Assembly (NCBI GenBank): GCA_008933995.1
Contig: WARS01000029.1
Coordinates: 8,866,332-8,930,331 of the forward strand
DNA length: 64,000 nucleotides
Source of the DNA: Datnioides undecimradiatus
Taxonomy: Eukaryota > Chordata > Actinopteri > Lobotiformes > Datnioididae
Reading direction: 5' to 3'
Both the position numbers and the translations under genes were made by a program. The notes under the pieces were generated by a model that did not search any database, was not told where the DNA came from, and worked only from the letters and a program-made list of their open reading frames with translations. Positions 1,360 to 57,615 of this stretch are shown piece by piece (position 1 is the first letter of the stretch; each line of letters starts with the position of its first letter).

Positions 1360-17796
<16,437 letters not shown>

Positions 17797-24772: not shown

Positions 24773-25031
24773 CCTACTTTATGTAGGTTACAGCTAAAAA
24801 CTAATACCCAGGTCGTCAATTTTAAAAGGTACATTACGACGTCCGCGTCACACCTGGAAACGACTCAGTTTGACACTAAAACAAATGAACAACATGCTGG
24901 GCGACATTAATTAAACTGTAAAACAAGACTGGCGCTCATAGTAAAGCTGCTACCTGCAGGCTGACGGATTCGGCTATTGCGTCATATTTCCGCGCCGCGT
25001 GCGTGCATTGCAACTGTGGAGGTCATCCACG

Positions 25032-28000
25032 ATGGGACACCTTGGAGGGCTATTTCTTCTCATCTTCACTCTGGCCTGCAATAACATCTGGGGTAAGTTT
25101 CTAGAATTACTTCTGCGTGTGTGTGTGTGTGTGTGAAACACAGAGCTGCTCTTGTTTCAGCGTTTCGTTTTGGAAGCGGGTGAACAGCGGAGAGTGCAGT
25201 CAAGCAGAAGCGCCTGCTCGTTTGAATGAAGTCCGTTTACAAACTATATCGGCAACTCAATCGTTAACTTGAAGTGTTTGATAAGGTTTTAGACTTGCCA
25301 TGTTATACATATTACGTCACGGGAAGCTTGTTTTTTAACAGCTTTTGCCAAGAACATGATAATGTCTATTAATGCACTAAATTGCAGCCTAGATACAGAA
25401 GAAAACCCTGTGCACAAGTCAGTGTAGCACTGTCAGCCCCAATATAGTCCAAATATGGTTGGAGTTTTGAGAGAAATGACAGAAATCGTATTTTGAGCAG
25501 GCAATTTATCAGATAAATCAGTCAAAAAAGTCAAATTACAATTTCTTTGATCTGACACAAGTGAAATTTAGTTTTATGCGGTTTTAGTGGTTTTACTGTG
25601 ATAATCATGAGTTAAAGGAACAAAACCTACGAGAAAAAAGATTAATTTGTCCATTCATTGAATAACTTCAGTCTATTAGGCTTCAGGTCACCACATATTA
25701 ACATGTTATGTCTTTACAGAATAAAAACAGAAAATGTGAAGGTTCTGCTGAAAATACCAATTAAGTTAATAATATTTTATTATTGTTGAAGGCGTTAGAT
25801 GTTATATTCCTTTACTTTTTATTTACATATATTTTATGTAACCTATAAGCTGTCATTTTCCTCCCGGTCTATTATGTAACTTTAAAACACTTGTATTGTC
25901 CTGATGACGCTTCTTTGATTTCTATCTTAACAACTGACATTCTGCACACTAACAGTAAACAGTGTCTCACGCATGTGCTTCAGGTGCTGCTGGTCACTCT
26001 CTGTCCCCCTGCCACGTAACCACAGGAGTTCAGGTGTAGTACGGCTCATGTGATCCCAAGACTGAGTGTGTGACGACACTCAGACTGTGGAGGATGGGTC
26101 AGATAACACCGCTGTGGTGAGTCAACAACCCTGACCGCATCCCAGACTATGAACATACACCGATTCATAAGCCTATTTTTTATCTTGGCAGCACAAACCA
26201 AAAGAATTAAAAACAAGGAATGCAGGCTTGTTTCTATAGCATCGCTTTTAATAATCTGGCAATTCAGCTTACTCTCATATAAGACATAAAAGGCATTCAG
26301 ACAAAAAAAACCCTCTAACTTAAAAGTCAAATTAAAGCTGCTTTTATGGGGCCTCACACTGTCTAAGAGAGAAGCCATTAGCCTAGCCTGTTGCTAATCA
26401 CTCTTCATTCTCCTGGAGCAATCCTGAAGGCATGCTGTAGAAAGTTTTCCATCCACAGTCTGTGTTAATAGTTAGTTAGTTGCTGGCAAAGCCAAAGTAG
26501 TAGTGTCAACTTGGTCAGTCCAAGTCACTCTTGTCATGTGCAGTCAATGTCTCTACCATGTAGAATTTTTGACAGTGCAGCTTCAGTGTCTGCAGTATTT
26601 GCGTCTACTGGCTGAAAGAACAATAATTCCTTTATCTTTTGTTTCTCCATCAGTGTTTTTGTAGTGTTTTGAATGGCAGTAATGCATTTGTGAAAGAGAG
26701 ATTTGCCCTCTGTTGTGATCCTAAAAAGATCGCTTCGTTGCAGAACCTATTATTTAAATATATAATTTGCTTAAACTGGCTTTTGTGGACCATTACCAGC
26801 CAAATGTTGCAATAATGGCCTTTGTGTCAGATTCACAAGCTTCTTCTCGGTGAGCAGATTGTTAAAATTATCAACATGCTGTAGAAGTGGCTTCTCTGTT
26901 TTATGAAAACAAAGAAAAATGCAAAGCTATATGTTAAGAGTCTTTCTGCAAAGGAATGCTGAGCCAGAAACACTACAAACATTTTGATTAATTACGTTCT
27001 TTATTTAAAGGAGGGCTTTGATATTCTTCAACCTGGACCCCTTGTGTTTGTGTGTCTGGTATAGAGATACCCGTCCAGTATAGTAGCAAGTCACCGGCTA
27101 GGGAAACAAGCTACAATGCACACACATGCTGTCAATAAACTCCTCCAGTAAAAGTACCTTTTTTTTTCCACTGACAAACTCACATTGTTGTTAAAATTGT
27201 CCAGCAACTTTAGGAAAACATTTGCTTTTCTGTGTACTGAAACCAAGTTAACACAATAATTTTAGCTGCAGCTATGCTATTTATGATTCCATTTCTTCTT
27301 CAGCTTCAAGTTTTTATCCTGGATAAAATGTTTCCGGGCAAGACTTCCCCTCTGTTTCATGATGTTGCCAGACAATTTTTAAAAACGTAGTAGATGTGCA
27401 CTGATGAATGCTGAAACAATTTTTAAGTATAAAGTATATCCACAGTTGTCATTCAAACAGGTCCAGGTTGAAAATAATGGAAATTCCACCTCTTTCAAGT
27501 AGAGGCAAACAGATAAACATCAATATAAATAAGACCAAGTTTTTATATTTGTTACATGTTTTGGTGCAAAACTGAGCGCTAAGCTGAATATGTAAACATC
27601 TAACTGATCTATTAACTAACGCTAGCTTCTTTGTAACACCTAACCTTTAGACATTGAGGATGGATGGATGGATTCTTTCATTGATTTGACAATAATAAAG
27701 TTAAAGTAAGAGTTGTACTGTCCAGTTGTGGCACACAGGAGAGGCTGAAACCAAAAGCTGACATTAAGAAGTCTGACTATGTGACTTTGAAGTCCCAGAA
27801 AACAGAAATATTGTGCAATGCACTTATCATGATAATTGCTCGCCAAGTGAAAAACTCAAACAAGTCCACGCTGGCTGCAAAATGTAGTTCAAAGGTGATT
27901 ATTTCAGTTTTTTCTGCTCTGTGTCAAAGTCTAACGGCGCCACACTGTCAGTCCGATTATTGTGATATGATGTGATGTGCTGTGCTCTTTTACCTACAGT

Positions 28001-28647: not shown

Positions 28648-31600
28648 ATTTATGTTGGTTCCTCTTTTAATTAATTACTGTGGATCAATAGGCCTTACAA
28701 ACATCACTATTTCAGTAACTGTGAGCCTCCCTGTTTACAGGTGACCTTTGGTGTAAAAAACATGAATTTGCTTGCCACAACGGACAGTGCATACCTCTAC
28801 ATTTCCTATGCAATGGTGTGGACAACTGCGGTGACAGGAGCGATGAGGCCTCCTGCCAGAACTGCACAGTGTTTTCATGCGGGCCGTACGACACTTGCCT
28901 ACCCAGGGACAAACTGTGTGATGGGCGCAAGGACTGCAGAGATGGGCGGGATGAGTCTAGGAAGTTGTGTGGTTTGTCTCAATCTAGCCCGCAGGCCTCT
29001 CATAAATGTTTGCCATCTGAGTTTCACTGTGGAGACGAGCAGTGCATCCCCCAGTCCTGGAGGTGTGACAACGCAATAGACTGCTCAGATGGTAGCGACG
29101 AGCACAACTGTGGTGAGTGAGACGGGTGCAAAACCAAAAGAAACTCTGTGGAGTCGCCCTTTTGTATACACTGTCTCTACTGTTTCTTCCTGGTTGGGAT
29201 GATGAGCTGCGATAAGAGAAATCTTTCAGATACTTCTGATAAGTCCAGAGGTAAATTTCCCAGTTTGGTGTTGAGGAATTTTACTAGCCTGATATCAACT
29301 CATGCAAAAAGCTTTGTGACAAACTGGAACATCGACCACACACCTGGTCTTATTACCAAACATCTGTGTCTGACCAAGAAAAAGGCGGGGCTATGTTCAA
29401 CATATGCTGACATGTCGTCGAATCGTGTCTGAAAGCAAAACTGCTCCTCTGAAGAGCCACACGCAGAGGGATAACAGAGCCTTAGGAAAGTATCTCCTCA
29501 GAGTAATTTAGAGATTCCTGCACTTGGTTGTACTCATGAAAGTGATAGAAGGTATTATGTGAGGACTGAAAAAAACCCCTGTTTTTCATTGTTGCACATC
29601 TCAATAAACAGCATGTGGGTGTGACTGTCAGATTGTTGATTTTAAGAAGATATAGAATTTGTTGTACAAAGTGTTGTCACTTCATCTCTGCATGGAGAGA
29701 ACATAAACTCGGGATGGTCACAAATGTGTGTTACATGATGTACTGAAGAAAAATACGATTTTTGGAGGAGCTGGTGATGCGGAGTGCAACAATTTATGCA
29801 CTTCTGCGAGTATAGTAGACATTTTTTTCAATCAGACAGTACAGGACTTCAGCCCTTGATCAGAACACCAGGTGTATTTTTTATAAGCCAGCTTATTAAC
29901 ATAAATCCACAGTTTAATCAGTTACTGCCAAGTGGTGGACTGCTGGGAAAACAGTCGGTACAGGCAAACTGAAGTAAATTTAACCCCAGCCACTGAGGGG
30001 GAAATGCAGTTTGATGATGGAACAAACAGACACAACAGATGTTGTCTAATTACGTTTACGGGCTCCTGAATTAAGTCTGTAGCCTGTTACCATACAAGCT
30101 ATTCTATTTAGGAAAAAGCATCTCCCTCACTTTTAAATGACAGTTTACTGAAGCCCAGATGTCCTGGTTTTAAAGGGACCACACGCTGGTGATCTGTGAG
30201 GGGCTGGTTAGTGTCAAGACTCTCATAGCTCCAAATGCAAATGTAGCATCAGGCTATTCATGAGCACACATTTAACAATCTGTCAGTGAAGACAAAAGAA
30301 AGTCATGAATATTTTTAGACTTTTGTTTCTAAAAATACAAGCTTTTTCAAAGTGAAAATTCTCTGTGTTTAGTCTGTACGTAAAATATTATTCTGTTAAA
30401 CTTTTGTTTTATGCTGTTGCTGCGTTTGTAGCTGAAAGTGCTGCAGCTCAGACCAAATATGCTGATTGTTTAACAAACTCTTATTGTATTTGAGAGGCTG
30501 AATATAGGCTCATGCTTTATTGCTGATGTTGCTAACCGGCCAGCAGAGGGCAGTGTATAGTGGAGAGTCCAGAGTGACAAATTGTTCAGTGCCTGACTCT
30601 CCGGTTTAGATCACAACAGACAGGATAGATTTGTTTGGTCTTTTTCAATGTTGACACTGAAAGGTAGTACAGAAGTCTTAAGCGCATAACACAAGCAGCT
30701 TTGTTCAGGCAGAAGGCTCATTTACTGCTCACCACAAACAACAAAACAAAGTCGAGCCCTGTTTAGAGGCATTCGCCCACAAATCATTTGACAAACAGCA
30801 CACACTGTTATTCAAACTGTGAATTAGCTTGTGGTTAACCACATTTTCAGATGTTTAGAAGCCAGAGTGTATTTGAATATTATTCAAAACCATTTCACTG
30901 TTGTTTGAATTTAAAACGTTTGTTTTGTGTCTGTCATGCAAAAATGCTAAAACATGGTAACCATAACGTCTGTCATGCCAATTTAAACATGCTGATGTTT
31001 ACAATATGATGATGCTCAAAGCACAGCTGCACTTTAATATAGCTTCAGTGAGCTGCTAGCATGGCGGTAGACCCTTAGTTGTGTTGTTTCACTTGTTATT
31101 TATATCGCTCTGTGTCTATAGATGTTGTTTGCAAAAGCTGTTTAAGTTTACTTTACTTAAACTCCTCCACTGTGAGGAAATGGAAAGGAGAGGAGCTATA
31201 CCTAAAAGCTCAATGGACAATCCAGAAGCCCCAGTCAAGAACCTAATGTACCCATCTCTGAAACAGCAACCAAAATACCTTTCACCACACACACCGACTT
31301 GACTCAATTATGTGAAATGGAGACCCATCCCAGAGGACTGCGCAGGTGACATTCGGGGCATCAGTTCTTCAGCAAAGTGGACTAAAGTTATCGTCTTTCT
31401 GGAATGATCCCCAGTCCAAAGTCAGCCCTCTGACATCTAAACCTCAGTGCTAAATGAATAAACCTCATGGTCACTGCATTTTTTTTTTTTTTTTTAGTAA
31501 ATAGAAATATTCCACACCATCGCCAAAATATGGTTTTGGATCCAGACAATCAGTTTGTTTTTGTTGTTATGACATCAGGAATGACGACAGTACAGACTTG

Positions 31601-34600
31601 TGTCACACGATATTGACACTGAACAACGCTCTGTGCTTCCTTGTACGAAACCACTCATTGTGTAATGTTTGTTCTTTGCAGATGTGAACGAGTGTGAAGT
31701 CAATAATGGTGGCTGCTCTCATCAATGTGTCAACCAGGATATGGGTTTCTTCTGCGACTGCCCCGACAACATGAGGCTGGTCAGAGACAGCCAGTGTGAG
31801 GGTGAGTGGCAGCAGCTTCGTACCTGCTAAATTTACTCCACCATTACATCAGCACGTGGAAAGATTTGTGACCACTGCACAAAACTCCTTATTACATCTG
31901 ACAATATCAATTACTTTTTGAAGGGATAGTTTATTGTTGAGGAGAAACTGATACAATTTACATAACTTTTGCTACTAACAGAAACGGGACTTCAGTCTAC
32001 ACGTATTTAACAGCTGCCTCCTTGAAACACCTTTTAATCTCTACTTTACCAAGTATCTGTTTTATCATCTAGAGGTGAACGCATGTCTGGAGAGCGACGT
32101 GTGTGATCAGCTGTGCGTTCACGACAGCCTTACCTGCGACTGCAACGAGGACTACCTGATGAATCAAACAACCAGAGAGTGTAAAGCCAAAGGTGAGATC
32201 TGAATGACTGATGATCGTGGAGGTCTGCCACCAGCAAAATGAAGGATTTTATATTGTAAGGTGATTTATAAGTCACGCCACTGTGGTAATTTCAGTCGTA
32301 CAACCAATAAACCCAAGAGCAGAACATTATTAAGAACACTGTCCTTCGATGCAGACTTCTGTTGACCGTTGCACCATAACAAACTAATACAGTGAAATAA
32401 ATTGACCAATTTAAACTCCATTCCTGTTTCCCCAAATTGTTAAAATGTCTGAGGTTTTCCTTTTTAAGCTGTGAGTAATCAACAAATGTCACCTAAGCTG
32501 AATCAAACAGACATAAGCATATCTTCACTCATACTCAATTTGGTTACTATTGCCATTATTTAGTTACTAATTACTATTTATTTGATCAACACATTTGATC
32601 TCATTTTAACCAGAATCTCAAGTTAAGTCAGATTATTTATGTCCGTCAAAAACGAGATGCACCTGTGGTGAAGATGTGAGCGTGAGATGGGTTTAAATTC
32701 ATTTCAGTGAGAGACTAGGAAGCTTGGAACAGGCAGGACGGTAACTTATTACTGCAGACATTTTAGGTGAACGTGTCCCTATTGTTCCTTTTTCCAACTG
32801 GAGCAAGTATTTGCATAAGCATACCGGAGAATACAGCTTTGCAATTATTTGTACATTATCAGTGGCGTTTGGCAGCTATGTGTACTCTGTCAGGAACTGT
32901 TTGAAGCTCATATTGGTCCCACCTTCATAAACTTTGAGTTATTTACACTGCAAACGAAAGGATGGCTGTACAAATATATTGTTGATCATCTATCACTTCA
33001 CTGAAGACACACCTATTGAACAAGCCCCTACATAGTTCTCAGCAGTGAATTATTTCTATTGTGATCTGCTTAACTGTGACATCATTTCTATTGTATAAGT
33101 GAATAATGCAGTCGCATTGGTTATGGTTTGATTTTTTTTTTTTTTTTCCCCCTGATATGAAACTGATATGATAGCTGATATTTGTCACAGATGGCAAAAC
33201 ATGAACTTGAAATTTTACACGTGTTGGGTCGCTGTCATTTTCCAGCTGATTTCATGTCTTACTTGTTGTGGATAATGTTAGTTTGATTTGCATCTTAGTA
33301 TTTGCATGTAAAACAAACAATGTAGTGACTTTCATTGATGTTTGTTTTTCCAGGAGATGAGGCTCAACTTGTTTTCACCTCCTTTCAAGGACTGCGAAGG
33401 TTAAACATCACTGGCACTGAATACAGAGATCCAGCTCCACGTTTACCAGGACCAGGGCCAGTAGCGGCCTTGGCCTCTAACCGAACACTGTACTGGGCCC
33501 GGCAGGGACAAGGCTCCGTGTACAGGTAACATAGTGGAGCTGTAGCTGCTGCAACCACCACACACTGTTTTGTGTTACTTAGTAAAAGCCAAAGCCGTGC
33601 TTGAGGAATGGGACAGTTGGTAACTCCCTTTTGTTAATAGCACAGTTTGTGATCCAATTGTAAACAAATAAATAACCCCATTCACCCATCTTCCATTACT
33701 AACCGCAGTGTCTGTAACAGTTGTTGGGCATCTCAAAAGTTTGCTTGAGCAAATGGGTTAGTCACCCCCCCCAGGACATCCTCTGTGAGTCCACAGCTGA
33801 ACATGACTGGAATACCTCTAACAGGGGAAATTTGTTTGCATTATTTCTTTTATTATGTTCTTTGAAAGGGACAGCTCCAGTTAAACAACATAAAAACATA
33901 TTAATATAAATGAGCCCGCAGTTCATTAAGCCAGGAAGAATCCAGGCAATCTCACCAAAGTCTGTTTAGATGAATGCCGTTAGTCTTGCAGTTGTCTCCT
34001 CACTGCCCTCATTCAACATATACTAGTTAAATAATGAATTACATCATGTGTGAGGAGACTAAACAAATAACAAAACCACCTTATGTAAAAGTAAACATCA
34101 CAGTGACGATTACAACTTCCGGCAAGCACATGCGCGCACACAGGCGTGCGGGCAAGAGTCCACACGTGTAAGAGCGCTGGCGTAGATATTGTGCATAATA
34201 CGGGCTGTACTGCACATGTTTGAACTTGTCCACTTATGCAAATACCTTGTGTAGAACAAATACAGCCTTGTGCATGTATCCTTTCTCTGTAGGTGTTGGT
34301 GAGCCATTCTGTTCAGGTAGCTAATATCAGTCATGTATATCCATATTGCACATTATGAGTCACTAATTTAGCATTGCAGACTTGGTTTGTTTTAAAAACA
34401 ATATCAATGTAGCAGAACTGTCAGAGAGATATTGTCTTTCTGATTCAACACTTTCTTCTTCCTTGTCATCACCTGGTCCCTACAATACCCACAATGCAAT
34501 AGGACTGCCACGGTTTGGCTCAAGATTTGGAGGTGTTATGCTGGTTGCAGCTAATGCAGCCCTTCTAACTCCACACTCAATGAATTTATGTCGTTTTCAA

Positions 34601-37600
34601 ACTTGTAGTCTTTTGATCCACACTAGGTCAGAGCTCATGCAACTCTTTCTGGAGCCTTAAAAGGCTTTCAACAGCACTTTTTCCCCATGTATGCAGTTCT
34701 CCTCAAGACTTGTTAACAGATGTTGATGTGTAAAATTGGTGTGGTTCCCCATTCAGTTCAGGAAGCTAGAGAGCCACAACCCAAAACTTGTTGACTGATA
34801 AATTGAGAGTTTCACTTTCAAAAAACCTTTTAAGGTTTCATTAACCTGCTGCCAAACAGCAGCTATGAAATGTTTGTAGTGTGATAGTGCTGCTTTGGTC
34901 AGTTTGTACACATGCTGCTTACAGTTGGTTCTAATAGTGGATTATTTTTCAAAGCAGAAATAAAAATAGTATAAAAACATTAATAGAAACTTGACTGAAC
35001 TGCTGCCGAGCTTTATGCATTTGTTCCCTATTCTGCACTCTCCTTACGTTTCAACCAGTTGATTTATATCACGGAAACACTTGGCATTTGATCTTATGAG
35101 AAGTACAGGCTGATGTTGTACGTTGTCACCGATAATGGTTATTGTCAGTTTAAAGAAATTGTCTGTATTGGTTCCTGTTTGTGTAGTTTGACTCTGGTCG
35201 AGGAGAAGTCTTTTGGCTTGAAGTGAAGCGATGAAACATGAATAGAATATAAAATAAAAACATAAAAGAGGAGAACAAGGCTGTGACATTCAACTTTGAC
35301 GCACAGTCTGCTCCTGTGGGCGAGTGCAACAAAATGCTTTATCAAAATGAATGAAGTGGAAATTAATCACTGACAATTATGACATTTAGACATCTCCTTT
35401 GTCCTGATTTTTGAATCTTTGACATTTTACAAACCCAATAAAAAGTTTAGATTGAAAAACTATGCTAGACGGAAAGTCCAAGGATCACCAAAGCTATTGC
35501 AGTTTATCCTAAAAATGACATGGATGTCTGAACCTAATATCCATTCCAATAGCTGAGATATTTGTTTTTTGTTTTAAATGTGACCCTCGTGCGATGCTAG
35601 AGGAAAAGTCAAAGGTTAAAGCTTCATCTTCTGGTGACCGTGAGTAGTTGCACAAACCATCATGCAGGATATTTCAGTGGGCCGACCACGTCACTAGTAT
35701 GAATGACCACACTCGATCAAATAGATGGATAGAATGATAGATAGTTTATTGGTTGTATTTTGCTTTAAAGTTTTCTGAGTCTGCACTTTATAATGAGAAG
35801 AGATGCATGAACTCATTGAGGCGCTGCTTTGAATAAATACCTTCCTTTCAATCAGAGTCTCATTGGATGGAGGAGCGCAGGATTCAGTGTTGGTGCTGAA
35901 AGGCCAAGGGTCAGTGTCGGGCCTGGCTGTGGACTGGATCCACCAGCTCCTCTACTGGACCAGCATGGAGAGCGGTTCTGTAAATGTTGGCCTGCTGGAT
36001 GGTTCAGCTCAGCGTCCCCTTATCACAGGACTTGACAAACCTTCTGCAGTGGCTGTTGATCCTCGCCAAGGGTAGGAGAGCCCCGGCATTTACTACTCAT
36101 TTAAAGTATTAGTTATGAGGAGGAAATCATCAAGGAGGTTTGTCACACTAACTCATTGTTGCATCATGAAGTTGCATGTAATGTTTGTTTTAAAAGCTTT
36201 CCCCAGGTTTTTATGATGTAACGCAACACAACAAAGACCACATTAAGAGTTCGTTAAACACGAGACTACTTTAATCAAGCATTTACCCAGGGAGGGGCAA
36301 TGAGGTGCATACTAATACATGCATGAACAAATAGCAGCTGCACAGTCAAAAAAAAAAAAAAAAAAAGGTGTTTGAAGTGCGTGGCTCCATCTTTCACCTC
36401 ATCTGTCAGTCAGAGCGGCACGTTTTTGAAATATAAGTACTTGTATCTGTTCATTTGGGTGTTAGCTTATTCATTTTAATTCTTTGTTGTAGCAACAGCA
36501 TTTAGAGGAAAAACAAAGCACAGTCTGAATAACTTTTTTATTACTCTGATAAAGATAGAGTTTAAGGTATTATATAATAAATTAGTATCAATAACTTTTA
36601 AAGGAAAAAAAGGAATACAGTTTAAATACCATGTGTATGTAACAGAATAAAGCACAGTTTTCAGCCCCAGAACTCCAGTTTTCAGTCAGCTGCTTCTGTT
36701 TCCTCAGGCTGCTGTTCTGGGCGCAGTGTGGCAGCTCCTCAAAGATTGAGAGGGCTAGCTTGGACGGCTGGGACAGGATGGCTCTGGTCACTGACTCGAT
36801 ACGCCACCCCGTTGCACTCTCTCTGGGTATGTTCTCCAGGATTGCTGAGCTAATCAGACAGTGATTTTTGAATGTGGCTAAAGTCCTTCTCTTCAGATTT
36901 ATGTAAATTGTTTAGAGAAGTGCAATGAACTACAGAAAGCCATAGCTTCCCCGTTTTAGTCTGTATGCATGGTCTGCTGAAGACAGAGGTCTGAATGCCT
37001 CACACGGTTCTGTTTAAGTCACTCAGTTGTTGCTTTCTACGGTGCAGGTGTTGTTTTGATGTTTGTTTGTTTTTCTAGACATGCCTCGGCAGCTGCTGTA
37101 CTGGGTTGATCAGGGAACCAGAAGTATCTCCAGAGTAAATCTAGTGGGTGGTCATCGTAAAACAGTGGTAGAGTCTAACGGTTACCTTGACCGGCCCTTC
37201 GGACTGGCTGTGTTTGAGGTAAATTAACATTACAGTCGCATGTTGAAGTAGAGGCCATGTCTGAACTCCACTTGATTCCTTTCAAATCACATATTAGCCG
37301 AGCACTCTGAAATTTTCCTCTTAGGTTTTTCGTTTTCTTTTCTGACACACATGAATGTTAATGTTGAAGACAGAGCTGCTACACAAATATCGGTGTGTAG
37401 TTAAATGACTAGTAATCATTTAGTAAGAAGAATATGTGTGAGTGCTCACTTACCATGTGAATAATATAACCTTTCCTTTACTGCTTGCATAGCGACATCT
37501 TCCCTGACCTGTCTTTGTCGTATAATCGCACATACTTAAATAACCCTTAGAAGTCCAGTTTATCAGTTACAATATTTATAACTGTTTTTATAATTTTTTC

Positions 37601-40600
37601 TTAATCCTTTTTTGTCTCATCTTGTACTGACAGCATTTGCTAGTGTAAGCCAAAATGGGCCAGTGCAAACAACAGACACATAAGACACAAAGACCCAACA
37701 TAACAAAGACTTCCTGTTGTTATTAAATGATAAATGAAGCTTGGTTATTTGTTTAAATGGCATTTTGTAATCCTATTGACAACATAGGTTCTCTGTTACC
37801 TTCTTGCTAAGATGACCTTTAAATCTAGAAATCAACCCTACATCTAATCAAGGATATCGATAACGCAAAATTCTTTTTGTTATTTTCTATGAAACTTTTG
37901 CTTCTACTTTACTAACTCAAGTTCTTGGCCACTTGTGTCCCTAGGTTTTGATGACTGTTTCTGCATTTTGTTTGTATCTTTTTGCTTCTGCCAGCATGCA
38001 CTTGATTACAGCTGATCTAACACACATTCCTGCACACACATGTATTGCGCAGGCAAGTTCTAAAACACAAAATAAAGATGCAGGACTGATGAAACATTTA
38101 AAAATTGGCATACGCACGTGCTGTTCGCCAAGCCTGCACGTAAACTCAAGCAGTGTAAAGTGGTAAAGGAAGTTGGCATTTACTTTGGCTATGTCTACTG
38201 AATGAAAACAGACAATATGAGGCCCTTTGGTTTCATGCTGTTTCACTCATCGACTGTGCTGGTAAAATCTAGAATTTAAAAAAAAAAAAAAAAAAAGATT
38301 ATGACAGAGCACCTTTTCAATACAACCTATCAAGTCATAATTACAATGATGAATGATGTGATTTTCGCTGAGAAATACCAGTTCTGTTAAGTCTGAACAT
38401 TCTGCTTCAGGGTTTTGTTTACTGGAGTGAAGATGTGACGCACTCTGTCTGCCGAGCCAACAAACATAACGGCAAGGACTTCCAAGTCTTGTTGTCCAAT
38501 GCCGCCTCACCGGGCGGTGTGGTCATCGTTCAGCTGGCTCTTCAGCCAAATGGTATGATCAGAATAAATGAAACCTGTACTGCTGTAGTGATTTTGCTAA
38601 ATGTGAAAAGCTTTGTTTCTGTAAGAAGCCCAGTGGTTCGTATGGATACTTCTGCTGGTGCTGCAGCGTGATTTAATTTGGAGTCACCTCATCACTCCTC
38701 TCTCTGGTTCTTAGGGCCATCTGTATGCGGACATACCAGGACAGTGTGCCAGCACGAGTGCCTCGTTGACCTGATGTCTGAGAGTCCAGAGTTTAGCTGC
38801 ACTCCTCCAGAAAGACAAATCTCAAAACAAAACAAATCTCATGAAATTCCTGCCATTGCTCGCACAATACCTACATCAACTTTATCTGATCCTACATTTG
38901 CTGGAATCCTTTCTCTCATCAGTAAGAAATTTTGTATTTCAAAAAAATATTTTGTGAAAACAAACCCTCACCACATGACTGATAAACCTCCTGCACTTAT
39001 CTTTCTTCAGTATCAGCCCAGAACACACCGCTGCTTAAAATAGCTGCTTTCCTATCACACAGGGCAGGTAACCTGCCTGCAAGTAAAATAAAATGCTCAA
39101 ACAGAAACAAAGGGGCACTTTTGCAATCTAGAGTTTGTCACCGGCATAGTTTAACTGTAAAAAATAGTGACTCATAATCAAATATTGACATATTGTATAA
39201 GATACATGTTGTTGTAATTTTGTCCTTCAGATTGCCTCAAGTTACAGTTTTCCAGCTGCTTCACAACATGAGTTTAAAGTTTTCAATTGCGAAATCGAGG
39301 GTCTAAAAGTGATGTCAACACACTCTGAGGCTGTCATGGCCACTCCCCGCTGACTAATAAACATGCATCAGGCAGCATCTGTCATTGTGTATGCACACTG
39401 GTGAAGAGCTCTTGAGCAACTTATTCCACATACATATTTGTTAAGAATTTAGCCCTTTATGACTGAAGGTTAAGAAGAAAAGAGAAGTGGCTAACAGTTT
39501 GTTGAATAGGACTTTACAGATCAGACACTTTTTTCTTCATGATACTTCCTTGGTTTTCAGCTACATGTGTTGTATTTGCTTAGCTCCCTTATCATGTAAT
39601 ACATTTAAAATGTAAGCTTCTAACAACTTCTAATCTTTGTGTGTGTCACAGTGTTTCTGAGTGTGCTGCTGGTGGGAATGGCTCTGTGGTGGTGGAGAGA
39701 GGAGTTCAGGCCGTCCAGGTCTCTCATTGAGCAGAGCTTCTCCCTGAAAGAGTCCCAGGACCCACTCATCATCCAGGGGCCACCCATGGCTCCAAACACA
39801 TGTTTTATCAAGGCAAGAGATGTTTGTGCACACACACACGCACACATAAAAAAACTGACACAGGCACCTTCATTCACCTTCAGAGAGGAGATACCATTCA
39901 TACAGTTGCATATATGTACACATGTCGAACTGTTATAAAGAGCTGCTTAATTTCTAAGTGGTTATTTTAGAGGCTGTGTTTTATGATTTGGCACCACAGG
40001 AAAGACACGAGGAACACATTTAATGCTGAGAGAAGCCGACTTTTAGAGGTGTGCCTTTGTCCTTAGAATTTATGTTTTTAGGGCTTTTAAAAGGTAAAAC
40101 CAATTTCTGTTTCTTTCAGTGTCCGGTCAGAGTTGGAACAGTTTTGATTATTTCTTCAAAACTTTGGTGGAGGAGCTACTGTGTTTTAGCCATGCTGAGA
40201 ACACGTCGTTCTCAGGATGTTTCAGCTTAAACATGACAAGGGATTAACAAAATCTACTGTCAGTTCCTGTAAACATCATAGGCTGTTAACAGTTTAAGCA
40301 AGGGTGTTGGGCCTACTGTATATGTTCAGCAGGCAGCTACTTCAAAAGCAGGGTGCGAAAGCATGCAGCACAGAACTAAACAAAGCGCTTCATCAGCGGC
40401 TTCATCAGTATCATTTAGCCAGAGTGTGATCCTCAGCGCTTTAGAACTATAACTCAACATAACAAACCATGCTCAGCATCTGAGTCCAGTTTCCAGCTTA
40501 ACCCTCCTGCTGCTAATGTGAGGGTACGCAGAAGGACAGGCGAAGCATTATCTCCAGCAAGAATTAAAAGCAGTTAATCAAGAAGAATGGGACAAGATTA

Positions 40601-41214
40601 TCTCTCAACAGTGTGAAAGGCTTGTGGAGAGCTGACCAGCCAGGATTAGTGCTCTACTGCTCTACTGCTAATGGCAGGACTACATTCATTTGATGATATG
40701 ATGGTTTACTTATTTTTTGTTCAGTTTTTAACACATTCTTTGTTATTTCTTAACTCTGATACTGACAATGGAGAGAACTGACATGTTGAAACTATCAAGA
40801 ATTTAGTTTTGTTATTTTTTTCTTAACAATACACAAAAAATTAATCATTTTCATTTGTTTGCGTCTGCATTTGTCTGATGCAGCCACACCTTTTGCAACA
40901 CAAAAAAAGATTTTTCCACAAATATTTCATGATAATATTTGGGATTGTGTAAAATTTTTAGGGTGTCCAAAAACATTTTTCCACCACTGTAATTGTTAAA
41001 AGTGCAGTTTGAGTTGGAGTTTGCTGTTTGAGCTTTTTGTGTTTGAAACACCTCTTGGGTTTTCTTAAAAAACACTGTGTCAGCTTCCCAGATAAACACA
41101 GCTCAATCTTCTCCCATCGGGTTAAAGGCTTATGCTGTGCAGTATGTCGACTAAGCCGCGTGTTGTCTCTGCCGCCAGGAAACTCTCCTTAAGATCGACT
41201 TGGATGGTGAATGA
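25032..41214 (+). CDS. CD320-position LDL-receptor-family receptor with YWTD propeller (12 exons)
   Basis: Exons 25032-25092, 28741-29112, 31682-31801, 32073-32192, 33354-33525, 35856-36071, 36708-36826, 37079-37218, 38411-38552, 38715-38921, 39652-39812 and 41179-41214 join into 1866 nt, or 621 residues. Order: signal peptide ([20 protein letters not shown]), LDLa modules at 25-59, 62-97 and 110-144, EGF modules at 145-184 and 185-224, a YWTD propeller at about 225-487, a third EGF lacking its last two cysteines, a transmembrane helix at about 550-571 and a 50-residue tail without NPxY. This is the LDLR/VLDLR plan with few LDLa modules. Position next to ndufa7 and the tail pattern R-RP...KES..L point to orthology with mammalian CD320, the transcobalamin-B12 receptor. 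An Lrp13-type or other fish LDLR relative is the alternative. The ligand is unknown. The last intron is read as GC-AG. Confidence 0.8.
25984..26116 (+). pseudogene. decayed LDLa exon in receptor intron 1
   Basis: The stretch is bounded by an AG acceptor (25982-25983) and a GTGAGT donor at 26117, as for a phase 1-1 LDLa exon. Six cysteine codons stand at 26010, 26035, 26049, 26069, 26086 and 26113, separated by 22, 11, 17, 14 and 24 nt. An LDLa module with typical spacing would give about 21, 12, 18, 15 and 24. Fragments in different frames read EFRCST..VIPRLSV and EDGSDN, the LDLa signature. The length is 133 nt (not a multiple of three after phase) and stops occur in every frame, so it cannot be a working exon. 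Confidence 0.7.
28591..28644. repeat. (CT)n microsatellite
   Basis: About 27 uninterrupted CT units, ending about 95 bases before receptor exon 2. Confidence 0.95.
28741..29112 (+). other. receptor exon 2: three LDLa modules in one exon
   Basis: One exon encodes three tandem LDLa modules in phase 1-1. Modules 1 and 3 have the calcium-binding signature ([10 protein letters not shown] and [10 protein letters not shown]). The middle one runs from CTVFSC to ESRKLC, with six cysteines but a shortened first loop, no aromatic before Cys4, and DGRDE in place of DGSDE. LDLR itself encodes LA3-LA5 in one exon, so this exon may correspond to it. Confidence 0.88.
31682..32192 (+). other. receptor exons 3-4: paired EGF modules
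   Basis: Each exon is 120 nt, phase 1-1, and encodes one six-cysteine EGF. The first, [16 protein letters not shown] with [10 protein letters not shown], has the D-N-E calcium-binding start. The second, [15 protein letters not shown] with [10 protein letters not shown], matches EGF-B of the LDLR family. Together they are the fixed EGF pair ahead of the propeller in LDLR, VLDLR and LRP8. Confidence 0.88.
33354..38552 (+). other. receptor exons 5-9: YWTD beta-propeller
   Basis: Five exons encode the propeller. Blade motifs seen in order are TLYWAR, LLYWTS, LLFWAQ, LLYWVD and FVYWSE, each followed by the usual I/V-x-R/N-x-x-L-x-G pattern (for example [16 protein letters not shown]). In LDLR this domain drives ligand release at endosomal pH and is needed for recycling. 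Mammalian CD320 has no such domain. Confidence 0.87.
39813..41178 (+). other. receptor intron 11, read as a GC-AG intron
   Basis: The donor is AAG|GCAAGA and the acceptor CCGCCAG|GAA. Joining them keeps frame (phase 0), adds [11 protein letters not shown] and ends in TGA at 41212-41214. GCAAG is the usual donor of the rare GC-AG class. If the exon is not spliced here, the frame stays open to TAA at 39937 and gives a different tail of 42 residues. Confidence 0.55.
40860..40996 (-). mobile_element. Tc1/mariner-like terminal fragment
   Basis: Read on the minus strand, the stretch begins tacagtggtggaaaaatg and continues with ttggacaccctaaaaa. This matches the terminal-inverted-repeat style of fish Tc1-like elements (CAGTGGTGG start next to TA). 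No transposase reading was seen, so it is a short non-autonomous copy or solo end. Confidence 0.5.
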
Positions 41215-43760: not shown

Positions 43761-46537
43761 TGTGTCTTTCTCATATAACTGTGTCTTTATCTTTTTATTA
43801 CATGTTGAGTCCTCTCATCTCTCTGTCCATTATAACAATATAAAATCTCAGCGCGTCACATTGACATCTCTGTAGTTGATTAACCACAGTGTTAAGGTAT
43901 TCACTTAAGTCACTTAAGATCTGAATGTGTGCATAACAACGTCATGAGCCTGTGGGCTTTCTAACAAGTGAAACCTTGTGGAAGGTTGTGATGAACTGTC
44001 ATCATCCCTGTTTGTTTGGTTTTTTTGCTCTTTTCAAGCTAGAGGAAAGAAAATGACAGACCACAGCACAGTCAGTGAAGTTACTTGAATCAGCTCAGGT
44101 CAGCTGCAGATACTGCTAGGGCTCTGAGCGAGATGCTAAAATATCTTTAGGTTGTTTAGGTTGTAAGCATACTAATATGTTCTTAACGTTAAACACACAG
44201 CATAGCTGGGGATGATAGCAATCTCATTAGATTTCCAGGTATTTGGCCATAAACAAAACTATTGATTAAATCGACAATTTGTCCTTATGACTGTTGTCCT
44301 CATTGATTGCACTTCCTCCCTAATGTATCAAACTTTGTTCCAGTTAGTTCCAGTTTATTTCACAGGAAAAGAGTAGACTTTGAGCTGCTGGTCGTACAAC
44401 GGGAAGGGATGGAATCAACAAAGTTCTACGGAATCTTTAACTGAGCACTGCAGATATCTGTACTAAAGTTTTTCAGGAGTCCATACAGCAGGTGTTATAT
44501 TATAGTGTTACAGGAACAGCCCAAAGTGTCAACCTGTTGGTGACGGTAGAGGAAAAGTGAGAAAGTCATCACAGTCAGTAGACTTCATTGTTTTCTGATT
44601 AAATTTTTTTCTCAGTGTTTTTGTGTTTATCAAATCTATCAGTCATTACTGTAATCTAATTTGCTGTACTGTTGACAGCAAATCTAATTGTCATGTCCTT
44701 TATTATCTTGACACACAGTCTGCAGGTTCTAGATTGAGTAATTTACAAACTGACCCCTACATTTCCTGTTTCTTGGCGCAGCTTTGCTGCCACTTTCGAT
44801 ACATCATCAGTGCAATAAGAGAACAGCTGGCAAGTGGAGGATGTAGTTTTATAGCATCCTCAAGTTTCAGGTAAAAGTTTTGGATTGTAAAAAACTGTAC
44901 ATGAGAGGAACAGTACCTTGTAAGCCTCTAGTAGATAATGGCACAGCTGACAGCTGTCAAAGCTTATAACACCTGTATTGGGGTTTTTTTGTTTTTAACA
45001 TGACCCTTCTGACTGTTTACAGAGTGCTTTGTTTTCCTTCTGTAATATGTGTTTATAGGTTACCATTAAATCTGGCCTGTTCGTCTTTCCCTTAAAGGTA
45101 TAATCTCGTAATTAGTTGTAAGGCTTGTCAAGTAGGTTAGCAGGAGAAGATCACACTTAGTCAATTAAGCTGAGAGAAATCACCTTCAAATGATTTCATA
45201 GGATCAAAAACAATGGTACTTTTTGGCTACTTTTAGTCTGATGTTGCTGACCTACCTTAGTTGTATGTGACATCTCAATTACAAAGCACTATAAAATTTG
45301 TATAGTGTGTTTTCATTCTAACACATTAAATACACATTTTACATCAGGAGTAGGCAAATAGCACACTATGGGTTTAATCTGGCCCTGCAACTGAACACAA
45401 AAAACAGTTTTTAAATTCAAATTTGTACATGCTCTCTCAAAAATCTACTACTAGATAATATCAATATGAGACTATGTCAATATGAGACTCATGTAAACCC
45501 TAATAAAGATATACCAGTTTATGAATAATCAATGCCTCATGTAAGGACAGACATGGCTACTAGATAAATAACACAGGTAAATAATATCATCTATTTGACT
45601 TAGATGTGCTGCTAACAATATCATTAGCAGAATTCATTTTCAGAATGAATATGCTTTTGTGACTCTGTTAGCACCGAGTGTGAGTGTGAGGTGTATGATA
45701 AATTTCATGAGGTTTCCTGAGAAAACAACCAGTTCAATTAAATAAATTTATTCTTAAATTACTTGAAATAACTGGACATGAAATAAACAGAAATGGTCCC
45801 TTATTGAACATCAGTGACAACTGCTGTATGTAATGTACAGATATACAATATTATATATTTCATACAAAATTGGATTTAAAACCAAATTGCTACAGACAGT
45901 GGGGAGCTGCAAAGCACAAATCTAAATTTCCACTCCTCTTTACAAATGTATACTCTCCTTTTAAGGTTTATTTAGAATAATTTCTAAGGGGAGGTTCAGA
46001 GTTATGAAAATGGTATAAGTAAATGAAAGACAGGAATATTAATTGGGTCATTTAAAAGCTGAATAAGTATAACTGCAAATTCATAAGGTCTTTGACTGCC
46101 CTTTGTCTCGTCACTTCAAAATCCCTAAATCAACTTTGTTTTCTAATCCCGCCTCCCCACCTAAATTTACAACTGCTTAAGGAAACTTGGAAAGGCACCA
46201 ATGGGATTAAATGGGTGACATCCCTGCTGCTTGCCCTTGATCTCCTAGTCTGATGTATCGAATGTCTATGTGTTGTCTCACAGTAACAGTCAGAGAGGGG
46301 AATATCTTTCTCTGGATTCTCTGGACAACAATGCCAGCCACAACTGACCCACAAAAACAGGATGAGCTGCTATTCAACAGGATGTCACTTCCAAAACGAG
46401 CAGACACATTCTTTCTGATGGCTTAGCAGGAGACAGCGTGTTGCTAGAATCATTTTCCTGGAGTGTTTCCTGTCATGCTTTTTTTCTTTCAATTTTGCTT
46501 CTTTGACTTCCTGCTTTGAACCACAGTTGGCTTCACT
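43761..46537. other. receptor to kcnv2 intergenic and 5' region
   Basis: About 2.8 kb without a supported gene. A strong polypyrimidine tract ending in ccacag (46521-46526), twelve bases before the kcnv2 ATG, suggests a spliced 5' UTR. Two CRX-type motifs lie at 46144 and 46204. Short open frames do not resemble known proteins. Confidence 0.55.
46144..46209 (+). promoter_or_regulatory. kcnv2: two CRX/OTX-type motifs upstream of kcnv2
   Basis: TAATCC at 46144-46149 and its reverse complement GGATTA at 46204-46209, both within 400 bases of the coding start. KCNV2 is a photoreceptor gene in mammals and CRX/OTX factors bind these cores. Six-base motifs are common by chance, so this is only suggestive. 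Confidence 0.25.
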
Positions 46538-48845
46538 ATGGCTTCAGTGAATGTTCAGCTGCAGAGATGTTTGCAAAACCGTCGCTCAACTGTCAACTGT
46601 CTGCCAAAGGGTGCTGAAGACAACAAAACATTCCCATTTTCTCAGGAGAAAACAGTGAAAGCATGGAGATCGCTGGAGAATCTGGATAGTCCTGTCTTTA
46701 AAGCAGAACACTCCAAAGCAGAGGACAGACCAGAACGCCAACACAGCATCCACATTAATGTCGGAGGGAAAGTATTTCATATCCCGAAACAGTGTGCTAT
46801 TAAGTATCCCCAAACCCGAATAGGCTCATTGGCCCTGTGCAGGGACAAAGCAAAGCTCCTCAAGCTGTGCGACGACTACTCTGTACAGAAGAATGAATTC
46901 TTCTTTGACCGTGACCCTGCTTTCTTTCACCATATTTTCCATTTCTACACAAGCGGAGTGCTGTGGGTCATACGGGAAATGTGCCCCATCAACTTTGAGG
47001 AGGAGATTGCATACTGGGGCCTGAGCCTGAAGGACACCCAGCTCTGCTGCTGGATGATGTTTGAGGAGAAGGTCGATGAGGTGCGAGACAACCTGAAGGT
47101 GGAAAGAGAGCTGATGGCTGAGATTGAGGTAAAGTATGACAATGAGCATTTCAAGGACATGATGTTTGGGAATATACGGAAGACTCTGTGGAACATCGTG
47201 GAGGATCCATTTTCCTCATGTCTGGCAAAGGCTTTCACTGTGATCTCCAACCTTTTTGTGCTCTTCTCCATTGTCGCAATGGCCCTCAATACTGTGGAGG
47301 AACTTCAAACATACAGAATCAAAGACAAAACGCACATGGAATGGGTGGAGATCATCACCATTGTGTTCTTTACTTTTGAATATTTAATTCGCCTTGTCAC
47401 CACTCCTAACATCAAACTATTTTTGAGGAGTGGACTGAACTTCGTGGACATGGTGGCAGTCATGCCTTATTTCATCCAGATCGTCTTTGAAGCCTTTAGT
47501 AACACTAAAGACATAAATGCACAGGTAGACCTCAGCGCCATGGCTCGGGTTAGCAAGGTCAGCCACGTCCTCAAAGTCATCAAGCTGCTGCGGATCTTTC
47601 GGATTTTAAAACTGGCCCGACACTCAACTGGAATGAGAGCTTTTGGGTTCACTCTGCGGCAGTGTTACCAGCAGACCTGTTGCATTTTCCTTTTCATTGC
47701 CATGGGAATCTTCACTTTCTCCGCTCTCCTTCATTCAGCCGAGAAGGAAACTGAAGGGTCTCCTATCAGCAGTATCCCATATGCATGGTGGTGGGCTGCA
47801 GTGAGTATCAGTAGCCAAACATCTCAATGTCATTCTCCAGCTTTTCCTAATCTACAAACATCTGCCCTTCACCCTTCTTCTTATCCTGAGAGATGTCAAC
47901 TGTTATTTCCCAAAATTTACTCTGCTCCTGCTAGACAAAATATATGTGAATGCATTTGTGAATGCAAAATATATGTGAATGCATGTGTTTGAGGTGCTTC
48001 TTGTCCCCAGAGTTGTCCAATCTGACACCAGGGCAAAATCAAGAGGATCATGGAAATATTATCCATGGTCTCACCCAGGACTAAGTTTATATCAGGCCTT
48101 CTCTTGCTGACAATGGTTTTCGATATTCAAAACCAGTTCGCCTGTTTGTTACCAGTCATTACAGTTGGCAGTTTGCAACTCTATGTTATGAAACTCTGCA
48201 TCTCGATAGCTCTGAACCGAGCCACTGGCACAAAAATTACAAATAGCTCACTTGAAACTGGCAGCTGCATGAGACTATTTTACCTACCGTGTGTAGCATT
48301 ATTTGTGATGTACTAAGTCCAGCTGGAGGCAGAAAGGCGATGTTTCCTTTTAACTGCACCAGCCAGTACAGAGGTTCAACCGGTCTCAACTGGGCAAAGG
48401 GAATTGTCTTACCAATTTGCAAAGCCTTTTCATTGGCCAACAGGGGCTCTAACTCACGTTTAAACTAGTTCACTTTTACTCATCATCATGAAGAATCATG
48501 TTATAATTAAGAAAATATTAATGAATTCTGAATAATATGAGACTGTTCACTTTTCTGTCTTAGGTCAGCATCTCCACTGTTGGTTATGGGGATGTGGTTC
48601 CAGTAACAATCCTTGGCCGCATTGTGGCCTTTGGCTGCATCTCATTTGGAATCATCCTCAATGGCATGCCGATCTCTTTCCTCTTCAACAAGTTCTCTGA
48701 TTATTATGCCAAGCTAAAAGCCCAGGAGTACAACGCTACTCTAGTGCAGCGGCGCTTTCAGCTCAAGAAGCGCCTCCGACGCAAAATGGACATGTGCTTT
48801 CATCCAACGGAGGAAGACAATAGTACAGAGAGCCACTGCGAGTGA
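46538..48845 (+). CDS. kcnv2: electrically silent potassium-channel subunit Kv8.2-like
   Basis: Two coding exons, 46538-47800 and 48564-48845, join in phase 0 into 514 residues. The T1 domain starts at [10 protein letters not shown] (73) and includes [11 protein letters not shown]1 is near 230-250 ([20 protein letters not shown]), S4 near 336-361 ([20 protein letters not shown]), the selectivity filter TVGYGD at 426-431, and S6 ends ILNGMPIS, without the second proline of the PxP gate, as in silent subunits. [19 protein letters not shown] and [10 protein letters not shown], and the intron placed just before the filter, match KCNV2 as I recall it. Such subunits do not form channels alone; they join Kv2 subunits in photoreceptor inner segments and shape I(Kx). 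A poly(A) signal lies at 49624-49629. Teleosts have more than one kcnv2, and which copy this is remains open. Confidence 0.85.
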
Positions 48846-56475: not shown

Positions 56476-57615
56476 ATGAGAAACATCAGAGCAAAAACTT
56501 TATTGCTGGCAGTAGCTCTTGGTCTGCTGGTCCTCCATCTCTGTAAAGTTTTTATTGACCCTAAAGCCATCCGCCTTCATGAAGAGGTGAGACAGGATGA
56601 CAGTGAAAATACAACACCCACCAAAAACAACAAGTATGTCTACTCCTGGCCGAAATGTGAACAAAACACGTCTGCTGCCAACATCACAGGCTTTAACTCA
56701 CTTCCTGAGGCAATAAAAGACTTTCTCTACTATCGACACTGTCGCAATTTCCCCATGCTACTGGACCGGCCTGATAAATGTGGTGGAGCTGATAAATCTG
56801 CAGACGTGTTCCTTCTGCTGGTCATTAAAAGCTCCCCTGTGAACTACGACCGCAGAGAGGTGCTGCGCAAAACCTGGGCTGAAGAAAGGTTACACAACGG
56901 TGTGTGGATCCGGAGGATCTTCATCTCAGGAACGACAGATGTCGGATTTGAGAAAGAGAGACTGAACAAACTACTGGAGCTGGAGCAACGTGAGTACAAT
57001 GACATCCTCCAGTGGGACTTCAGTGACACATTTTACAACCTCACCTTGAAGCAGATGCTCTTCTTGGAGTGGATGGAGAGAAACTGTCCAAATGCTCACT
57101 TCCTGCTAAATGGTGATGATGACGTGTTTGCCAACACAGACAACATGGTGGAGTACCTTCAAAGCCTCAAGGACAATGATGGAAGCAAGCACCTCTTCAC
57201 TGGCCATCTCATCGAGAACGTGGGGCCCATTAGGTCATCAGAGAGCAAGTATTTTATCCCAGTTCAAGTACAGGAATCAGACTCATATCCCTCCTACTGT
57301 GGCGGTGGGGGCTTCCTCTTGTCTGGCCATACAGCTTTAGTCATATACAACATGTCCCAGTCCATTACCATTCTTCCCATCGATGATGTGTACATGGGGA
57401 TGTGTCTGGCCAAAGCAGGACTTGCTCCTAGTTCACATATGGGTGTGAAGACAGCAGGACTGCACATTCCCTCCAGCACACTAGATGAATATGACCCTTG
57501 CTATTATAAAGATGTTTTACTGGTACACAGGTTCCTGTCCGGCCGCATGTATCTTATGTGGCACAGAGTACATGATCCTAATCTGGAATGTGGTTCCTCT
57601 AAGACAAAGCTTTAG
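56476..57615 (+). CDS. b3gnt3: beta-1,3-N-acetylglucosaminyltransferase 3-like
   Basis: One exon encodes 379 residues of a type II Golgi enzyme that adds GlcNAc in beta-1,3 linkage to galactose, extending core-1 and poly-lactosamine chains. A short basic N-terminus is followed by a transmembrane anchor at about residues 8-26. The family motifs are VFLLLVIKSSPVNYDRREVL, RKTWAEE, DILQWDFSDTFYNLTLKQ, the DxD metal site NGDDDVFANTDNM (Asp214-216), YCGGGGFLLS and PIDDVYMGMCL. N-glycosylation sequons stand at Asn64, 69, 188 and 292. The region LYYRHCRNFPMLLDRP-KC and the YKDVLLVHRFL ending fit B3GNT3 among the family. I chose the ATG at 56476 because it directly follows a splice acceptor and gives a normal anchor; an in-frame ATG at 56434 lies in the intron. 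Teleosts have tandem b3gnt3 copies, so the exact paralogue is open. Confidence 0.87.
   Translation: MRNIRAKTLLLAVALGLLVLHLCKVFIDPKAIRLHEEVRQDDSENTTPTKNNKYVYSWPKCEQNTSAANITGFNSLPEAIKDFLYYRHCRNFPMLLDRPDKCGGADKSADVFLLLVIKSSPVNYDRREVLRKTWAEERLHNGVWIRRIFISGTTDVGFEKERLNKLLELEQREYNDILQWDFSDTFYNLTLKQMLFLEWMERNCPNAHFLLNGDDDVFANTDNMVEYLQSLKDNDGSKHLFTGHLIENVGPIRSSESKYFIPVQVQESDSYPSYCGGGGFLLSGHTALVIYNMSQSITILPIDDVYMGMCLAKAGLAPSSHMGVKTAGLHIPSSTLDEYDPCYYKDVLLVHRFLSGRMYLMWHRVHDPNLECGSSKTKL

Follow-up and report, generated by a model that had tools for sequence, protein, structure and literature searches.

The receptor gene and its first intron

The window, a stretch of 64,000 nucleotides from Datnioides undecimradiatus, carries a gene for a protein of the LDL-receptor family (Table 1). 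Residues 1-29 of the Siniperca chuatsi protein P0001 align to 25008-25094, and a possible last short exon of the receptor lies at 41173-41211. When the spliced 614-aa model was submitted to Pfam, three PF00057 stretches, all of them in exon 2, and PF00058 were recognized. To compare the gene with its relatives, we listed and examined the best 120 of 699 matches, which are named LRP8-like, LDLR-like or VLDLR-like. None of these 120 exceeds 79% identity, indicating that the fish's own protein is absent from them. The nearest relatives of the receptor are percomorph fishes. The modules of the receptor also match CD320 chains, and its tail is presumably similar to that of CD320. An identity with Lrp13 was rejected on domain count, given the three PF00057 stretches in the 614-aa model; an excerpt of PMC9935665 describes Lrp13, the oocyte vitellogenin receptor, as having 7-13 LDLa repeats at the N-terminus, one more repeat at the C-terminus and a length of 1234 aa in eel.

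Several neighbors were recognized in the window: a potassium-channel-like frame (BTB_2 and Ion_trans) at 46532-47989, a complete single-exon b3gnt3 at 56476-57612, and a DUF1908 piece at 3097-3483 that we take to be a MAST kinase. The only N run of the window, at 11778-12273 between CT-rich and GT-rich simple repeats, is an assembly gap.

Table 1. Features of the receptor gene and its first intron in the window
Feature	Position	Strand	Remark
Exon 1, coding part (start codon, signal peptide), with phase 1 at its end and gtaagt following	25032..25092	+	
Splice-acceptor stretch	25962..25983	+	13 of the 20 bases preceding AG are pyrimidines (exon 2: 14)
Exon of the first LDLa module (M1); its assembled sequence has several indels of 1-2 nt	25984..26116	+	Profile, tblastn, splice signals
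Splice donor gtgagt	26117..26122	+	Last three exon bases (GTG) and donor identical to those of exon 2
Copy of a second dispersed repeat, starting about 0.4 kb 3' of the M1 exon	26490..26905	+	Indel count within the range of the other copies
Copy of a first dispersed repeat within this intron, serving as neutral yardstick	27126..27285	+	31 substitutions and 2 indel events relative to a consensus built from the other copies
Exon 2, encoding the intact LDLa modules M3, M4 and M5; phase 1 to phase 1	28741..29112	+	
Further receptor exons: two EGF-like modules, YWTD propeller pieces, stalk, transmembrane segment, tail	31682..39812	+	Outer limits only

The first intron holds the segment studied here. 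It is 133 nt long, with ttcag immediately before 25984 and gtgagt after 26116, so that the intact-looking splice signals of the original prediction are indeed present. TGC or TGT triplets stand at 26010, 26035, 26049, 26069, 26086 and 26113, with the predicted gaps of 22, 11, 17, 14 and 24 nt; these six form the LDLa-spaced set among ten TGY triplets in total. The switching of frames noted earlier is also found: EFRCST and IPRLSV share one frame, EDGSDN requires a second frame, and AAGHSL a third one that continues exon 1 in phase as in the relatives. As assembled, the segment departs from PF00057 in that its six cysteines fall into more than one frame. The acidic motif after the fourth cysteine, which is the calcium-site motif of LDLa modules, is retained, since EDGSDN is readable and matches E-D-G-S-D of the profile. 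All three frames contain stops, and inclusion of the segment after exon 1 leads to a stop at codon 39. If exon 1 is spliced directly to exon 2, reading continues in frame without a stop. The other exons of the receptor and the b3gnt3 frame are open.

Orthology of the intron segment with module M1

A frame-tolerant profile built from 58 M1 sequences scored 83.8 bits over all 45 positions of the segment. The best of 2000 dinucleotide shuffles of the same stretch reached 24.3 bits, and the best spot listed on both strands of the window outside LDLa sequence reached 22.2 bits. The profiles of M2, M3, M4 and M5 gave 23.8, 25.5, 26.4 and 31.1 bits on this stretch, which is thus closer to M1 than to any other module, at the place where gene order puts M1. 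With tblastn, P0001 gave collinear matches in two frames, at 25983-26060 (E=0.13) and 26023-26184 (E=0.011). These scores bear on the idea that TG-rich intron sequence merely resembles an LDLa module by chance: the ten TGY triplets could invite it, but it is refuted by the distance from the shuffles and by the specificity for M1, and we give it practically no weight. The profile score and its specificity, the phase continuity with exon 1 and the donor shared with exon 2 together indicate that the segment, judged by its sequence, is the orthologue of M1, the first of four LDLa modules in this teleost LDL-receptor-family protein. The locus tags of the receptor and b3gnt3 adjoin in Channa striata, Zoarces viviparus and Pampus argenteus, which agrees with orthology.

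In the LRP8-like and LDLR-like receptors of other teleosts (Siniperca chuatsi P0001, Micropterus salmoides P0003), M1 agrees in sequence and in its place between the signal peptide and the CKKDEFAC module. The original prediction was right to recognize an LDLa exon here, with the signal-peptide exon before it and the three-module exon after it. The 1-1 phases are read in the window, and the likeness to the M1 of relatives is at the protein level; unlike theirs, the reading frame here is broken by small indels in the assembly. A search by DNA for a second copy of the M1 exon in the 581-Mb assembly (497 contigs) returned its own place only. The protein P0004, compared with the assembly, recovered this gene exon by exon and elsewhere gave at most 48% identity among the best candidates scored. 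A remnant of M2 was sought in the rest of the intron, where the best score, 13.2 bits, was at noise level.

LDLa arrays among the relatives

Module profiles run on the 120 relatives listed of 699 detected a whole M1 in 101, a partial M1 in 7 and none in 12, so that the intact counterparts proposed as a check are abundant. The partial cases are six goby-type stubs and one truncated protein; the set with none includes two more goby-like stubs and the doubtful gene models P0065, P0086 and P0117. The combination M1+M3+M4+M5 was tallied in 79 of the 120 (six being goby-type stubs), and the five-module array M1-M5 in 11, including Megalops, Anguilla, Myripristis and Polymixia; the remainder have other sets. 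M2 follows M1 in P0022, P0027, P0060, P0070, P0071, P0077, P0102, P0104, P0109, P0112 and P0114, and occurs without M1 in P0088 and P0100. We take all 13 carriers of M2 to lie taxonomically outside percomorphs, and on that basis the reduction of the array from five to four modules seems to have preceded the spread of percomorphs.

In eight entries (P0097, P0098, P0101, P0106, P0107, P0108, P0111 and P0118) M1 is reduced to a short in-frame remnant of about ten residues that ends at the last M1 cysteine. They consist of Neogobius (P0108) and seven lgn entries on 2.0-2.8 kb, transcript-like contigs, and two other gobies, P0116 and P0119, keep the full M1. In these stubs, for instance P0108, P0098 and P0106, M1 is not a full module, as is also the case for the window's exon as assembled. 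The stub is however an in-frame remnant while the window's M1 is frame-broken, and the goby type is a clearer module reduction. Proteins annotated without M1 were also found in Takifugu, Pholidichthys, Oryzias latipes, two salmonid entries and Dallia (P0058, P0073, P0076, P0088, P0100, P0120). This scatter over the tree reflects either repeated loss or annotation gaps.

To place the window's receptor, we computed a tree of 62 rows, comprising 61 of the 120 listed relatives and the window. The part before the first EGF module was cut off, except in P0100, which was used as a whole protein, because lost modules should not steer the tree. The receptor adjoins Micropterus with a support of 95/77, and the path distances are 0.21 to Siniperca P0001, 0.22 to Micropterus P0003 and 0.24 to Chaetodon P0002, all three with an intact M1. 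The label "no full M1", carried by nine rows including the window, requires nine changes, at least 8 of which are forced by starred branches, a count that errors in gene models or annotation may inflate. The part of the original prediction that saw the ligand-binding array shrinking is borne out in other teleosts but not established for this fish.

Damage in the M1 exon and its possible origins

The match of the M1 profile to the exon requires seven frame jumps in 133 nt. We asked how well the residues were kept between these jumps. When the profiles of all modules were built from one set of 50 proteins, 41 of 45 M1 residues were seen at the same position in relatives, or 37/41 when codons overlapping a neighbor are left out, counts that are somewhat flattered since the aligner chooses frames to its own advantage; the working modules M3, M4 and M5 gave 37/38, 37/38 and 35/38. 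M1 is thus conserved like M5 and slightly less than M3 and M4. Identity to Siniperca amounts to 35/45 in M1, compared with 28/38, 31/38 and 26/38 for M3, M4 and M5; for Micropterus the figures are 33/45, 29/37, 30/38 and 25/38. In its residues, the divergence of the M1 exon is not clearly above that of modules under selection.

The damage was then compared with simulations in which M1 proteins of relatives were back-translated at random and then damaged, the count of indels and the average number of substitutions per indel being fixed for each setting. With 5, 8 or 10 substitutions per indel, none of 9000 runs attained the observed score; with three, it was attained in 1.3% of runs with seven indels and in 0.07% with nine. 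In a grid of nine settings with 6300 runs each, a run was accepted if it came near the observed score, length, jumps and unseen residues. At 0, 0.25, 0.5, 1, 1.5, 2, 3, 5 and 8 substitutions per indel, 332, 266, 241, 93, 43, 22, 2, 0 and 0 runs were accepted, so that 839 of the 999 accepted runs came from at most 0.5 substitution per indel and none from the 12600 at five or eight. The damage in M1 fits at most about two substitutions per indel. The aligner undercounts indels, finding a mean of 4.0-4.1 jumps for seven planted (at most 0.5 substitution per indel), which suggests that the seven jumps in M1 stand for at least seven indels.

Two dispersed repeats served as yardsticks in the same genome, 15 other copies of the first and 5 of the second being compared with those of the window as part of the 41 other matches listed. 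Over its 16 copies, one of which lies about 1 kb downstream of M1 in the same intron, the first family shows 328 substitutions and 32 indel events, or about ten substitutions per indel. The second, which is poorly alignable, shows 245 substitutions and 76 indels over six copies, about 3 per indel; its copy near M1 carries 13 indels, compared with 5-20 in the five others. In human trios, 17,812 SNVs were counted against 1,282 indels, according to an excerpt of PMC5147774, and no published substitution-to-indel ratio for fish was found in our literature searches. Taken together, the excess of indels, the near-normal residues and the repeat yardstick indicate that ordinary neutral decay does not explain the M1 exon.

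Which process, then, produced this sequence? The exon bears disabling lesions, as a fossil exon should (seven frame jumps and the stop at codon 39). Substitutions do not outnumber indels to the extent seen in neutral DNA, nor do the residues fall clearly below those of working exons, both of which would be expected of a fossil. Lesions dominated by indels in conserved sequence, the pattern expected of an assembly error, are found. The original prediction regarded the exon as a module caught in decay, with function lost long ago and the array shrinking from four to three modules in this lineage. The off-frame cysteine triplets, the stops, the frame switches and the clear orthology to an intact module could all be accommodated by such a history. 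It is nevertheless quite improbable in view of the simulations with five or more substitutions per indel, of a residue conservation near that of working modules and of splice signals that look unspoilt. A unitary exon pseudogene would likewise have a broken frame at the orthologous place and intact copies in relatives, but neutral decay would have given it the excess of substitutions over indels that M1 lacks. Still less credible is a poison exon, whose occasional inclusion would silence the transcript through the stop. Both splice sites look usable and 133 nt is not a multiple of three, but a single stop would suffice for that role, the many indels would be unneeded and the LDLa residues would not have to be kept.

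The damage could also be real and recent, a burst of indels unaccompanied by substitutions in an exon constrained until then, which would now be skipped to give a three-module receptor. Inclusion of M1 would then stop translation at codon 39, and the stopped transcript would presumably be degraded. Since the array varies among teleosts, with M1 absent or reduced in several other lineages, real loss is possible in this fish and not implausible a priori. The in-frame junction of exon 1 with exon 2, the scattered lineages lacking a full M1 (with the reservation on annotation made above), the single copy of the exon in the assembly and indel counts that are not raised nearby all agree with such a burst. 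We know of no usual mutational source that would put seven frame jumps but hardly any substitutions into 133 nt, and the human trio counts likewise argue against it, so that we consider this origin unlikely. If the indels were real, the exon would have died by a mode that ordinary neutral decay does not yield, through at least about seven indels of 1-2 bases. For a receptor family in which teleosts differ in LDLa number, this would be a peculiar way of losing a module.

The account that we favor, and that is probably correct, is that the exon works and that indel errors are locally clustered in its assembled sequence. In the living fish, M1 would be a phase 1-1 cassette exon providing a fourth LDLa module ahead of the three of exon 2. 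In the assembly, insertions and deletions of 1-2 bases would be clustered in a short stretch around M1, breaking its frame and mimicking a fossil. As substitutions are almost absent, these indels would probably be base-call or polishing errors. The exon is genuine and belongs to a known type; on this account, only its decay would be spurious. The data show homology, position, phase, an excess of indels and near-normal residue conservation, from which we infer the erroneous nature of the indels, judged by their pattern, and the use of the exon. For this fish, the pattern points to the assembly rather than to a loss of M1. Against this stand the conservation of M1, slightly below that of M3 and M4, and the ratio of only about 3 substitutions per indel in the second repeat. 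An excerpt of PMC8081667, from the vertebrate genome project, reports that short indels causing frameshifts are the commonest assembly errors before polishing, and that a gene kept frameshift errors where its locus had not been polished. Those long-read errors likewise break conserved coding exons by short indels; the cluster in M1 is unusually dense, with seven frame jumps in 133 nt and clean flanking exons. An exon in a single assembly may thus look decayed because the assembly is, which calls for caution in fossil-hunting. The substitution-to-indel ratio, calibrated on repeats of the same genome, can separate decay from assembly error without reads.

Finally, we considered the extent of a putative bad stretch and the frequency of such errors. 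The downstream copy of the second repeat shows no excess of indels, indicating that any bad patch ends before about 26.5 kb; upstream, exon 1 is the closest bound that can be set. As a control, 200 kb around other LDLa genes of the assembly were scanned for modules of at least 38 bits. Of the 169 modules, 161 had no frame jump and 8 had one or two. The assembly is otherwise good, so errors in M1 would need tight clustering; such errors are rare in it, and a cluster like that of M1 would be exceptional. On inspection, the jumps in seven of these eight control modules seem to stem from alignment effects, from exon edges or from inserted residues. The other, a module of an LRP-type gene (L025 963-1070; G000:C468, ~14.705 Mb), shows an apparent lone 1-nt frameshift beside three T, which is probably a consensus error in the assembly.
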